Assembly: GCF_021462415.1 (NCBI RefSeq)
Contig: NZ_JAKEDS010000002.1
Span: 62,001 to 126,000 of the forward strand
Origin: Rhodohalobacter sp. 614A
Lineage (GTDB): Bacteria > Bacteroidota > Rhodothermia > Balneolales > Balneolaceae
DNA: 64,000 nucleotides
Direction: 5' to 3'
A program made the position numbers and the translations under genes. Positions 35,603-39,661 of the stretch are shown here, piece after piece (position 1 is the first letter of the stretch; the number at the start of each line of letters is the position of its first letter). Under the pieces are notes generated by a model. It was given only the letters and a program-made list of their open reading frames with translations, had not been told where the DNA came from and made no database searches.

Positions 35603-37684
35603 ATGAGACATTGCTCCCGACTTTTACTGCTTCTGGCAGTTTTACTTATCAGTTCATGTTCGAAAAGGTCTGATACTTATCATGTAAGTATTACCGCAGT
35701 TCCCACAGAAGCCGGAACTGTAACACCCGCTGAAGGTGATTTTAATATTGGCAGATCGCTTGAAATTTCCGCTTTTCCGAACGAACATTGGGTATTTGAG
35801 AGATGGGAAGGAGATCATACCGGAACGAATAATCCGGCAATTATCAATTTAGATACAGACAAGGATATTGCAGCTATCTTTGCCAAACGGGAATATAATC
35901 TTACTGTAAATATTGAGGGAGAAGGCTCTGTCAGCGAAAGGATTGTTCAACAAAAAGCTACCGAATATCCTCATGGAACAGTTGTAGAATTGACTGCAAA
36001 TCCGGCCGATAATTGGGAATTTATCGGTTGGCAGGGAGATATAACAGGAGCCGAAAATCCGGCTGAAATTACGATTGAAGGTGAAATGGAAGTCACAGCC
36101 GTATTCAGCAAGATTGAATATCCGTTAACTATCAATATTGTGGGCCAGGGAACGGTTACTGAAGAAATTGTCCAGGCCAAAGCCACTGATTATCCTTTTG
36201 GAACGGTTGTTAGATTAACGGCTGAAGCGGACTCAGGCTGGGCTTTCACAGAGTGGGAGGGAGATTTGGCAAGCACTGAGAATCCGGCTGAGATCACCAT
36301 CGACGAGCCCAAGACAGTAACTGTAAACTTCGATCGAACATTCAGGTTGAATACAATTTCGATTCCTGCCGCCGGTGGTACAATTGAACCTTTAGACGGA
36401 ACCTATGTGCGCGACACTTCTTTTGATGTAGAAGCTATTCCCAACGATGGCTGGCAATTCGTTGAGTGGCGTGGTGATTTTACGGGTACCACAAATCCGT
36501 TTAATCTTACTATGAATGGTAATAAAACTCTCGAAGCACATTTCGAACCTCTCAGTTTTACGTTGGATACAACCATAGTAGGAAATGGTCATATCTTGAT
36601 TGATATATTGAATGGAGGAGAAACAGAAGATGGCTACGAGTACGGTACTACCCTGGAATTAACAGCCGTTGCCGAAACTGACTGGTCATTCGTTCGGTGG
36701 CAAGGAGATGTGTCGGGTACCATAAATCCTACGCTTGTTACTATTGATGGAAGTAAATCTGTAACGGCCGTATTCCGGTTCTTCGATGGTGGGAACGGCA
36801 ATCCTGGAAATCCATATCAGATTTCCACATTGCTTCAACTCCAGGCCATGCAGGATTATCCCGATTCGCATTTTATTCTTACACAGGATATTGATGCAAG
36901 TGCAACTTCCGGTTGGAATATCGGTGCAGGATTTATGCCAATCGGTTCTGATGAAGTTCCATTTACCGGTGGTTTTAACGGTGCAGGATTCAATATTTCA
37001 AACCTGTTTATGAATCGGCCGGACGAACAGAATATCGGACTATTTGGCAATATTGGTACCGGAGTGGTTATTCAAAACACGATTCTAACCAATGCTGATG
37101 TTACAGGTAATGGAAATACAGGGGCTCTTGTAGGGCAAAATAACGGTGAAGTATTGCGCTCACACAGCACAGGAAGTGTGAGCGGATCATTCGCCAGCAG
37201 TGTTATTGGCGGCTTGGTTGGGCTGAATAATGGAACGGTTCAATCATCATCATCCAATGCAACGGTGATTGGTTATTCGAATGTTGGTGGATTAGTTGGA
37301 AGCAATACTTCCGATATTCTCAAATCCTATGCTCTTGGAGATTTTTCCGGCACTGACAATATTGGCGGTCTTTTGGGCGAAAATGTTGTGGGCGGTTTAG
37401 TTTCAGAATCGTTTGCAGCCGGCTCAGTATCAGCTTCACTTGGAAATGATGGCGGATTGGTTGGCGCAAACAATGCAACCGTAGAAATTAGTTATTGGGA
37501 TACGGACTCATCCGGTCAGATGGATGGAGATGGTGATGGCGATGTGACAATTGGACTAACCGGTTTAACGACACCCGAAATGTCCGGACCTGCTGCCGAA
37601 ACAAATATGAGTGATTTTAATTGGGTGGAAACGTGGACAACAACCCCTGCGTCTTACCCGATTTTACAATGGCAGTCTCAATAG
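35603..37684 (+). CDS. Lipoprotein with InlB-type repeats and GLUG repeats
   Basis: A lipoprotein signal (LLAVLLISSC, Cys near residue 19) leads to five tandem beta domains of about 73-75 residues, each with a motif such as W-x-F-x-x-W-x-GD-x-T/S-G-x-x-NP followed by a T-V/A-x-F strand. These match the divergent InlB B-repeat family found in surface proteins. The C-terminal third carries GLUG motifs (GGLVGLNNG, GGLVGSNTS, GGLLGENVV, GGLVGANNA), which occur in bacterial adhesins and autotransporter-like proteins, and ends in YWDTDSSGQ and a W-rich tail. A role in surface adhesion or ligand binding is inferred. The gene is followed by the tRNA/GIY-YIG locus. Confidence 0.82.
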   Translation: MRHCSRLLLLLAVLLISSCSKRSDTYHVSITAVPTEAGTVTPAEGDFNIGRSLEISAFPNEHWVFERWEGDHTGTNNPAIINLDTDKDIAAIFAKREYNLTVNIEGEGSVSERIVQQKATEYPHGTVVELTANPADNWEFIGWQGDITGAENPAEITIEGEMEVTAVFSKIEYPLTINIVGQGTVTEEIVQAKATDYPFGTVVRLTAEADSGWAFTEWEGDLASTENPAEITIDEPKTVTVNFDRTFRLNTISIPAAGGTIEPLDGTYVRDTSFDVEAIPNDGWQFVEWRGDFTGTTNPFNLTMNGNKTLEAHFEPLSFTLDTTIVGNGHILIDILNGGETEDGYEYGTTLELTAVAETDWSFVRWQGDVSGTINPTLVTIDGSKSVTAVFRFFDGGNGNPGNPYQISTLLQLQAMQDYPDSHFILTQDIDASATSGWNIGAGFMPIGSDEVPFTGGFNGAGFNISNLFMNRPDEQNIGLFGNIGTGVVIQNTILTNADVTGNGNTGALVGQNNGEVLRSHSTGSVSGSFASSVIGGLVGLNNGTVQSSSSNATVIGYSNVGGLVGSNTSDILKSYALGDFSGTDNIGGLLGENVVGGLVSESFAAGSVSASLGNDGGLVGANNATVEISYWDTDSSGQMDGDGDGDVTIGLTGLTTPEMSGPAAETNMSDFNWVETWTTTPASYPILQWQSQ

Positions 37685-37703
37685 AAGAGAAATAAAATCA
37701 TTG

Positions 37704-37742
37704 AAAAAAAAAGCTCAATCTGAATAAACAAATTGAGCTTTT
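37704..37742. terminator. Terminator of the defective tRNA-Gly copy
   Basis: A 9-bp stem (AAGCTCAAT at 37711-37719, ATTGAGCTT at 37732-37740) lies just after the 3' end of the tRNA-like sequence, with runs of A and T on the outer sides, so it can act in both directions. The same stem, with a different loop, follows the intact tRNA at 38102-38140. Confidence 0.7.
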
Positions 37743-37746
37743 AAAA

Positions 37747-37827
37747 TGGAGCGGGAAACGGGATTTGAACCCGCGACCTTCTCGTTGGTCCCGACGTTTC
37801 GGGACTCTGCCAATGAGCTATTCCCGG
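37747..37827 (-). pseudogene. Defective tRNA-Gly copy
   Basis: On the minus strand this reads as an 81-nt tRNA-like sequence. The 3' half including T arm, acceptor strand and CCA is identical to the tRNA-Gly at 38145-38219 over 42 bases. The 5' acceptor strand and D arm are tRNA-like but changed (first base C facing C). The 5' half of the anticodon stem and the anticodon are gone, replaced by the perfect hairpin GTCCCG...CGGGAC. It cannot decode. Its 5' end supplies the last two codons and the stop of the GIY-YIG gene. Confidence 0.8.
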
Positions 37828-38084
37828 TATTCGTTTTCATCTGAGTCAATCAGTTTTTGGATGAACACTTTGCTTTTCTGCCGTTTGATAAAATTTTCAA
37901 ATTTGATAGCCTCTGTTTTGGTGTCAAACGATTTGCAGAATTGAATCTCCCATGGTATTCCTGATTTTGTGGAAGGTGTAGATCCTTGATTATGAAGATG
38001 AAGTCGATTTTGAGGTGTATAGGAAGTGTAACCGGTATAAAATCGATCGGCTGATTGACTATGTAGGATGTAGGTATAAAACAT
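37818..38084 (-). CDS. Small GIY-YIG-domain endonuclease
   Basis: The 88-residue protein is little more than a GIY-YIG nuclease domain: the GIY element is YTYIL at the start, YIG is YTG (in RFYTGYT), the conserved Arg and His are in QNRLHLHNQG, and a Glu occurs in KFENFIKRQKS. Small proteins of this type (UPF0213/YhbQ-like) are frequent in Bacteroidota. The ATG at 38084 is preferred because the family begins at this point; another ATG lies at 38096. Its last codons CGG-GAA-TAG are the 5' end of the tRNA-like sequence at 37747-37827. The gene starts just after the terminator of an intact tRNA-Gly gene. DNA nicking or cutting at tRNA genes is inferred, not shown. Confidence 0.82.
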   Translation of the reverse strand: MFYTYILHSQSADRFYTGYTSYTPQNRLHLHNQGSTPSTKSGIPWEIQFCKSFDTKTEAIKFENFIKRQKSKVFIQKLIDSDENEYRE

Positions 38085-38101
38085 TGAAAAGCCCATGAAA
38101 T

Positions 38102-38140
38102 AAAAAAAGCTCAATTCGAGTGATCAAATTGAGCTTTTTT
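38102..38140 (-). terminator. Terminator of tRNA-Gly
   Basis: The 10-bp stem AAGCTCAATT (38107-38116) / AATTGAGCTT (38127-38136), with A- and T-runs outside, lies five bases beyond the tRNA 3' end on the minus strand. It ends six bases before the upstream possible start of the GIY-YIG gene. Confidence 0.75.
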
Positions 38141-38144
38141 AAAA

Positions 38145-38219
38145 TGGAGCGGGAAACGGGATTTGAACCCGCGACCTTCTCGTTGGCAACGAGATGCTCT
38201 ACCACTGAGCTATTCCCGC
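38145..38219 (-). tRNA. tRNA-Gly(GCC)
   Basis: The minus strand folds as a complete cloverleaf of 75 nt including an encoded CCA. The acceptor strands GCGGGAA and TTCCCGC pair fully, discriminator U is followed by CCA, the D arm is AGCTCAGTGGTAGAGC, the anticodon arm is CTCGT-TGCC-ACGAG type with anticodon GCC, and the T arm is GCGGGTTCAAATCCCGT. It is the intact partner of the defective copy downstream. Confidence 0.97.
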
Positions 38220-38350
38220 TTGTTGCAAGACTTCAAATATAAAGCCTTTCGGCCTTCCTTTTCAACACTATTTTTAATTTTTTAATCTGGTTTTTCAATT
38301 TCAAGCTTCAAAAAAATCATCAATAGACACCAGTTACAAGTAATAAACTC

Positions 38351-39661
<1,311 letters not shown>

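Follow-up and report, generated by a model that had tools for sequence, protein, structure and literature searches.

Free-standing GIY-YIG homing endonucleases are already known, and the closest described case is SegB, a phage enzyme of this kind that cleaves phage DNA in the tRNA region (Brok-Volchanskaya 2008, as cited in PMC13096335). SegB drives tandem amplification of a tRNA-Tyr segment, and the route proposed for it is recombination to which the tRNA gene contributes its 5′ part and segB its 3′ part (PMC13096335). As portrayed there, SegB of T-even phages resembles the bacterial units described below in three ways: the GIY-YIG nuclease stands alone and neighbours tRNA genes, tRNA segments are amplified in tandem, and the 3′ end of the nuclease gene is joined to the 5′ portion of a tRNA gene, a join also found in the bacterial arrays. 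The motif given for SegB, RAWTSGAAC (GTTCSAWTY on the opposite strand), resembles the tRNA T-loop, a resemblance noted in the present analysis. The bacterial units differ from SegB in being chromosomal, in occurring at many tRNA isotypes with matching nuclease clades, in having single-domain proteins of 80–90 aa and in carrying hairpin-broken tRNA copies; their cleavage of DNA is presumed. Further features of Seg-type homing endonucleases encountered here are a gene outside any intron or intein and the existence of sites with and without the gene (compared between species).

Elements that integrate at tRNA genes by means of a tyrosine integrase have in common with the present unit the tRNA site, a direct repeat of the tRNA 3′ part and the intact tRNA that is kept, whereas the GIY-YIG unit has no integrase, a single nuclease gene and, in the window, a length of 338 bp from nuclease start to copy end. 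REP palindromes are served by RAYT transposases and offer a likeness in that short perfect hairpins are linked to a nuclease-type gene; in the GIY-YIG unit, however, no transposase was found, its hairpins lie in the arms of tRNA copies and they number 14 in the own genome. The known single-domain GIY-YIG proteins of the Slx1 and UPF0213 types are repair enzymes or uncharacterised. They resemble the nuclease in fold and by a weak sequence match, UPF0213 also in size, but no result here ties them to tRNA genes.

The locus under study was found in Rhodohalobacter sp. 614A within a window of 64,000 nucleotides, the whole stretch of DNA that was analysed. It is one of many GIY-YIG units linked to tRNAs, which form a large family across Bacteroidota and allied phyla. 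With a probability of roughly 0.6, such a unit is a selfish, tRNA-specialised, free-standing GIY-YIG element of the homing type, spreading or amplifying via breaks repaired on tRNA repeats while an intact tRNA is retained. The full unit consists of the single-domain nuclease and a duplicated, usually hairpin-broken part of a host tRNA, and shares its strand with an intact tRNA of an isotype that mostly matches the nuclease clade. In the titles and abstract beginnings of the open-licence literature, no description of such an arrangement in bacterial chromosomes was recognised, and as far as this literature shows, a bacterial, isotype-clustered and hairpin-marked family at tRNA genes may be new.

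The unit behind tRNA-Gly(GCC)

On the minus strand, the intact tRNA-Gly(GCC) is followed by a terminator, the GIY-YIG ORF, a defective tRNA-Gly copy and a second terminator (Table 1), and the order and strand of tRNA, nuclease gene and second tRNA-like sequence given by the first-pass annotation were reproduced. The intact gene is the sole tRNA called by ARAGORN over the window, the defective copy not being called. Both terminators were recovered by the consensus scan, for which shuffles predict 0.7; they had been described as having matching stems, which is correct for the outer stems, whereas the inner stem and the loop differ.

Table 1. Features of the tRNA-Gly locus in window coordinates.
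Feature	Position	Strand	Basis
Promoter-like site TTGAAA-18-TATATT upstream of tRNA-Gly	38236..38265	-	Consensus match only
Intact tRNA-Gly(GCC)	38145..38219	-	ARAGORN; Rfam RF00005, 76.8 bits
50 bp of intact tRNA and flank, counterpart of 37739-37788	38137..38186	-	Sequence comparison
Terminator 1, in the spacer between tRNA and nuclease gene	38103..38140	-	Consensus scan
Stand-alone GIY-YIG nuclease, 88 codons from ATG	37818..38084	-	PF01541, E 3.5e-13
Defective tRNA-Gly copy	37747..37826	-	Infernal/Rfam RF00005, 35.4 bits (gathering cut-off 29)
Perfect hairpin TCCCGA-AACG-TCGGGA, 16 nt, replacing the 5′ part of the anticodon arm	37789..37804	-	Sequence comparison
3′ half of copy and flank, 50 bp identical to 38137-38186	37739..37788	-	Sequence comparison
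Terminator 2, 3′ of the tRNA copy	37709..37742	-	Consensus scan

The defective sequence is a full-length tRNA copy and thus more than a mere 3′ end. Its identity with the original starts inside the anticodon and covers, as had been reported, 42 nt within the tRNA, or 50 nt in total with the flank; upstream of this point there are few mismatches and the hairpin replacement. The codon overlap noticed earlier is likewise real, CGG-GAA-TAG being both the C-terminal codons and stop of the nuclease gene and nucleotides 2–10 of the tRNA copy. This fusion recurs beyond the window, since in 51 of 95 cases the tRNA-matching stretch starts no later than the last base of the nuclease stop codon, tandem copies being separate entries in this count as in the host-match, hairpin-interruption and genus counts and in the 114-row tree.

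The first-pass annotation also spoke of a replacement tRNA end, and a foreign origin of that end has to be given up. Among the 54 cases with a detectable 3′ piece behind the nuclease, 15 of which had one to three other tRNAs for comparison, the host's own tRNA is strictly the best match in 42 and the best or tied in 50, and the tRNA of another genome matches better in four. The 3′ piece of the window copy scores 42 with the own tRNA and 38 with the best other. The best or tied host match in 50/54 rules out a foreign end and indicates that the copy was made from the local tRNA or kept equal to it.

The frame of the nuclease is open to a TTG at 38114 (37818-38114, minus strand), and the ATG at 38084 is the likely start because the family alignment begins at that position. 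Y5, Y16, R27, H31 and E63, which we take to be the catalytic residues of a GIY-YIG nuclease, are present, E63 being lost in one of 14 aligned members. The protein is a member of the GIY-YIG nuclease superfamily, with a catalytic domain bearing the Y, Y, R, H and E residues. Its AlphaFold2 model consists of one confident domain (mean pLDDT 93.9), and among solved structures it comes nearest in fold to UPF0213 protein BH0048 and to the branched-DNA nucleases of the Slx1 type, followed more weakly by the catalytic domain of I-TevI, with no match as good as E 0.001. There is no separate DNA-binding domain within the 88 residues, and a Pfam search of the unit's protein returned PF01541 alone, with no Y1/HUH transposase.

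The nuclease gene lies outside any intron or intein, the intact tRNA being contiguous and the ORF standing behind the tRNA terminator. A group I intron with its nuclease was considered and rejected, as the tRNA is uninterrupted and Rfam detected tRNA families alone above threshold over 37000–39000. An element of the tyrosine-integrase type was also rejected, since the unit encodes no integrase, though the 50-bp direct repeat of the tRNA 3′ part is present; apart from the nuclease, the ORFs of at least 40 aa between the two tRNA sequences do not exceed 59 aa, overlap the nuclease or the tRNAs and include no site-specific recombinase. The likeness to integrative elements that had been drawn for this locus thus extends to the layout and stops at the integrase.

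The nuclease looks to be kept by purifying selection, on limited data, because dN/dS is 0.06–0.09 in the seven pairs of relatives with dS <2.5 that were usable among 40 (30 gave no dS estimate, three had dS >3, and one of the seven had dS <1). Such selection would also be expected of an ordinary host gene, for DNA repair or otherwise linked to tRNAs, that was caught in tandem tRNA duplications, the copies having decayed passively. Tandem duplications are generally frequent around tRNAs, and the host-matched 3′ pieces would fit simple duplication as well; this origin is nevertheless improbable in view of the patchy presence at orthologous tRNAs, the isotype clustering and the perfect hairpins standing in place of random decay, all of them unexpected for a host gene.

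Distribution and isotype of tRNA-linked nucleases

Nine GIY-YIG matches were found in the own genome. Two belong to longer frames, of 618 and 320 codons; of the seven small ORFs, five, at four loci, are located at tRNA genes or pieces of tRNA, namely for Val, Ser (a tandem pair), Asp and Gly, and two lie elsewhere. Across the genus, a same-strand tRNA or tRNA fragment is found within 300 bp of 68 of the 92 small GIY-YIG ORFs (80 loci; three non-genus loci, L159–L161, are left out), and an intact tRNA within 300 bp of 52, upstream in 46 and downstream in six; no opposite-strand tRNA neighbours are listed among the 92. These ORFs were taken from a Pfam search in 16 genomes (G000–G015), frames above about 170 codons being left out, and from matches to the window protein alone in G016–G024, the more distant GIY-YIG genes of those nine genomes being missing. 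Of the 82 regions listed, 80 were examined, the other two coming from outside the genus. Among the 24 ORFs without a tRNA within 300 bp, seven are near a contig end and three have a tRNA or fragment at 418–638 bp (tandem or second copies); the remaining ORFs distant from tRNA resemble, by eye, different subfamilies. Control loci with frames of UvrC length (615–643 codons) have a tRNA within about 1.5 kb in none of nine cases.

A phylum-wide draw gave a match at E 1e-8 in 183 of 296 genomes. An intact same-strand tRNA is present at 36 of 40 phylum loci, a non-random sample picked by hand from the best matches, the first 20 mostly for tandem arrays. For the named loci, taken as the best 80 of at least 474 confirmed, an intact same-strand tRNA lies within 300 bp at 65 (seven of the 80 repeat genomes sampled before and are kept in this count and in the 57/80 hairpin count below, and further overlaps are possible). 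These best 80 of at least 474 come from Balneolaceae, other Bacteroidota, Cloacimonadota, Neomarinimicrobiota and Ignavibacteria/Chlorobiota, together with one MAG each of Dojkabacteria and Gracilibacteria. The seven repeated loci were dropped from the hairpin-interruption survey, the 151-locus tree and the stop-codon overlap count; one genus locus, L012, is contained in L288, a record of Rhodohalobacter halophilus JZ3C29. The enrichment of small GIY-YIG genes at tRNA genes, which the first-pass annotation had proposed to look for, is thereby borne out both in the genus and among the best named loci. No vehicle between cells was seen, because viral contigs gave no confirmed relative, plasmids gave none, and phages gave one weak match (37.5% identity, E 4e-4).

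Nuclease clades follow the tRNA isotype, with leaks. On a tree of 114 labelled nuclease domains, the amino acid of the tRNA requires 20 changes (minimum 10, shuffled mean 76.4), and on a second tree, which includes the named loci and is limited to a single domain for each locus (151 rows), it requires 36 (minimum 11, shuffled mean 107.0). Arg forms no cluster in the 151-row tree, and many forks are unresolved because the alignment has just 85 columns.

The match between clade and isotype can also be read as a conflict at the RNA level, in which the nuclease would cut its cognate tRNA and the hairpinned copies would be transcribed decoys or antitoxins. Type III toxin-antitoxin loci, the model for such a conflict, comprise a repeated RNA, a terminator and an RNase gene, and the units offer counterparts in their tandem tRNA-like repeats, some of them upstream with, by eye, a promoter-like spacer of their own (L015/L088), and in the terminator that separates tRNA and nuclease. 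The window copy folds to -28.5 kcal/mol, but this is barely more stable than shuffles (z -1.72). Some copies, those of L222, have no 5′ half and therefore no possible acceptor stem, and to our knowledge no GIY-YIG RNase has been described, so that a conflict of this type is very improbable.

Hairpins in the tRNA copies

The hairpin is the most regular feature of the units, and also the most novel. The tRNA-matching sequence near the nuclease is interrupted at 198 places in 102 of the 199 loci examined, by rough position in the anticodon arm (95), the T arm (78), the D arm (24) and the variable arm (1); in L311, hairpins replace the D, anticodon and T arms together. A stem of at least six pairs is present in 137 of the 198 interruptions, against a mean of 5.2 and a maximum of 13 in 200 shuffles, and 88 contain exactly TCCCGA..TCGGGA. 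The stems vary across units (TCCCGA, TCCGCC, TCACGC) yet remain paired. We know of no named system that explains how one palindrome comes to occupy different arms, depending on the tRNA, across several phyla.

A TCCCG hairpin lies near 57 of the 80 named nuclease genes (again the best 80 of at least 474 confirmed). For the 114 tRNA-linked nucleases it is found in the downstream window in 34, in the upstream window in 20 and in either in 44, the last figure resting on two windows per gene and the control, 3 of 791 windows of similar size, on one; for nuclease genes without a tRNA label the figure is 7/26. The downstream hairpin accompanies Gly (12/15) and Ala (5/5) units, and none of the Met (0/13), Leu(gag) (0/3), Pro(ggg) (0/7) and Ser(gct) (0/7) units; these four and the Arg units are without the TCCCG hairpin and have other palindromes or none detected. 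At 22 tRNA-Gly loci, six with the nuclease and 16 without, a TCCCG..CGGGA hairpin lies within about 500–600 bp at 6/6 occupied and 0/16 empty loci. Because hairpin and nuclease presence coincide exactly at these loci, the mechanism is directly testable.

In the 4.69-Mb own genome the hairpin pattern occurs at 14 places, three of them within tRNA copies (backwards control 0), and in the window at one. The other palindrome type, TCCGCC..GGCGGA, occurs at 0 places in the own genome. A high-copy genome repeat was rejected on these figures, 14 places for the TCCCGA type and 0 for the TCCGCC type.

The hairpin itself could be what moves or is recognised, with the GIY-YIG protein as its handler, in the manner of REP and RAYT; an Slx1-like nuclease would then act on hairpins or cruciforms of tRNA arms, and palindromes would be placed into D, anticodon and T arms. 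The excess of stems over shuffles, the 88 exact palindromes, the proximity of the TCCCG hairpin to nuclease genes in the named (best 80 of at least 474) and tRNA-linked sets and the pairing retained by differing stem sequences are in agreement with such a role, and the modelled fold, nearest to UPF0213 BH0048 and Slx1, may point in the same direction. However, 61 of the 198 interruptions have no stem of six or more pairs, the 14 pattern copies in the own genome, with three in tRNA copies, do not amount to a large dispersed family, and the Met, Leu(gag), Pro(ggg), Ser(gct) and Arg units do without the TCCCG hairpin; a hairpin-driven system is accordingly judged unlikely. In the homing-type reading, the hairpin would mark the break point of the tRNA copy and render the copy neither a tRNA nor a target.

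Hairpins of this type were also met in the rRNA operon on C10 of the own genome (L049). Around 2083, the 5′ part of a tRNA-Ile with a TCCCGA hairpin adjoins, by eye, the intact tRNA-Ile, and no nuclease gene was noticed in this rRNA spacer. Around 1488, TCCCGA..TCGGGA is also present, presumably in the 5′ part of the 23S rRNA gene.

Empty sites, arrays and a proposed mode of spread

Empty orthologous sites, which the first-pass annotation had suggested to look for in relatives, exist in between-species comparisons. At tRNA-Leu(GAG), L082 is occupied and L275 empty, with flanks 79% and 83% identical and 362 bp versus 63 bp between them; in L082 a truncated nuclease follows the tRNA terminator and precedes the next gene, and no tRNA copy was detected in this otherwise clean example. 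At tRNA-Gly, the occupied L172 and the empty L173 are 77% identical over 1580 aligned columns, in a comparison that stops at the L172 contig end, 141 bp behind the copy, and so has the right flank outside it. The whole tRNA is identical in the two, and the copy with its terminator in L172 aligns again to the single tRNA and terminator of L173. Gain and loss are indistinguishable, because these comparisons are between species and not between strains.

Units also occur in tandem. L222 has five units of nuclease and tRNA copy with a 315-bp period behind tRNA-Asp, and L226 has three behind tRNA-Ser, while in L048 and L223 the intact tRNA lies downstream of the units, which bear the tRNA 5′ part. 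Series of hairpinned tRNA pieces free of nuclease are found in L258 and upstream in L015/L088. Degenerate units are represented by 12 of 70 tRNA-linked genus ORFs that are short and away from contig ends, two of the 12 being pieces of one gene (L111), in a count based on 93 ORFs and slightly different rules.

In the mechanism proposed, the tRNA gene would be the place where the nuclease nicks or cuts DNA, and repair by recombination, for which the tRNA repeats provide homology, would insert or amplify the unit and leave one intact tRNA; the unit would be selfish and sheltered behind an essential gene. This homing-type reading is favoured because the join of nuclease and tRNA proposed for SegB amplification is also found in the bacterial arrays. 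The earlier proposal of a mobile unit also survives, because small GIY-YIG genes are enriched at tRNA genes (68/92 in the genus, 65/80 in the best of at least 474 named loci) and empty orthologous sites exist; the movement itself we infer.

Several observations sit less well with homing. The identical intact tRNAs of L172 and L173 speak against simple cutting within the tRNA, since a target inside it would leave the immunity of the resident unexplained, and the target may lie elsewhere. Hairpinned tRNA copies can follow one another with no intervening nuclease (L258), the isotype clades are leaky, 24 of 92 genus ORFs have no tRNA within 300 bp, and the clean occupied site L082 combines a truncated nuclease with no detected tRNA copy. 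More tentatively, the units could be minimal mobile elements of about 300–400 bp in several phyla, in which a structure-sensitive nuclease of 80–90 aa reads hairpins of tRNA arms, mostly of one isotype per clade, the hairpin, in place of an arm of a duplicated tRNA, serves as an end or immunity mark and the intact tRNA is left behind.

If the homing-type reading is true, tRNA genes of a group of bacterial phyla host selfish nuclease units of very small size, which may rank among the smallest mobile elements that carry a gene, and amplification of tRNA segments of the phage SegB type extends to bacterial chromosomes. It would also account for stray GIY-YIG annotations and broken tRNA copies in such genomes, and the family would be a source of nucleases with a natural isotype-specific preference for tRNA genes.

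A few individual loci show further rearrangements. In L258 (G070 C14), non-coding units of about 68 bp lie between nuclease copies, each by eye like the 3′ part of tRNA-Asn with a hairpin in the anticodon arm. L257 contains, at 69-2633, a tRNA array of about 101-bp period in which an intact tRNA-Asp(GTC) stands beside an intact tRNA-Gly(GCC) among hairpinned Asp copies, an arrangement that suggests an anticodon change inside the array. On C1 of the own genome (L366 485-5391, about 952.2–957.1 kb), an insert of 4.9 kb that encodes a tyrosine integrase (PF00589, E 2.2e-21) is flanked by the intact tRNA-Asp and a second copy of the tRNA-Asp 3′ part from the anticodon onward, and now parts the GIY-YIG unit L042 from its tRNA-Asp. 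The tRNA-Leu(GAG) locus of L274 and G008 C103 appears split over two contigs with the tRNA 3′ end repeated, and looks as if it were occupied by another insertion.
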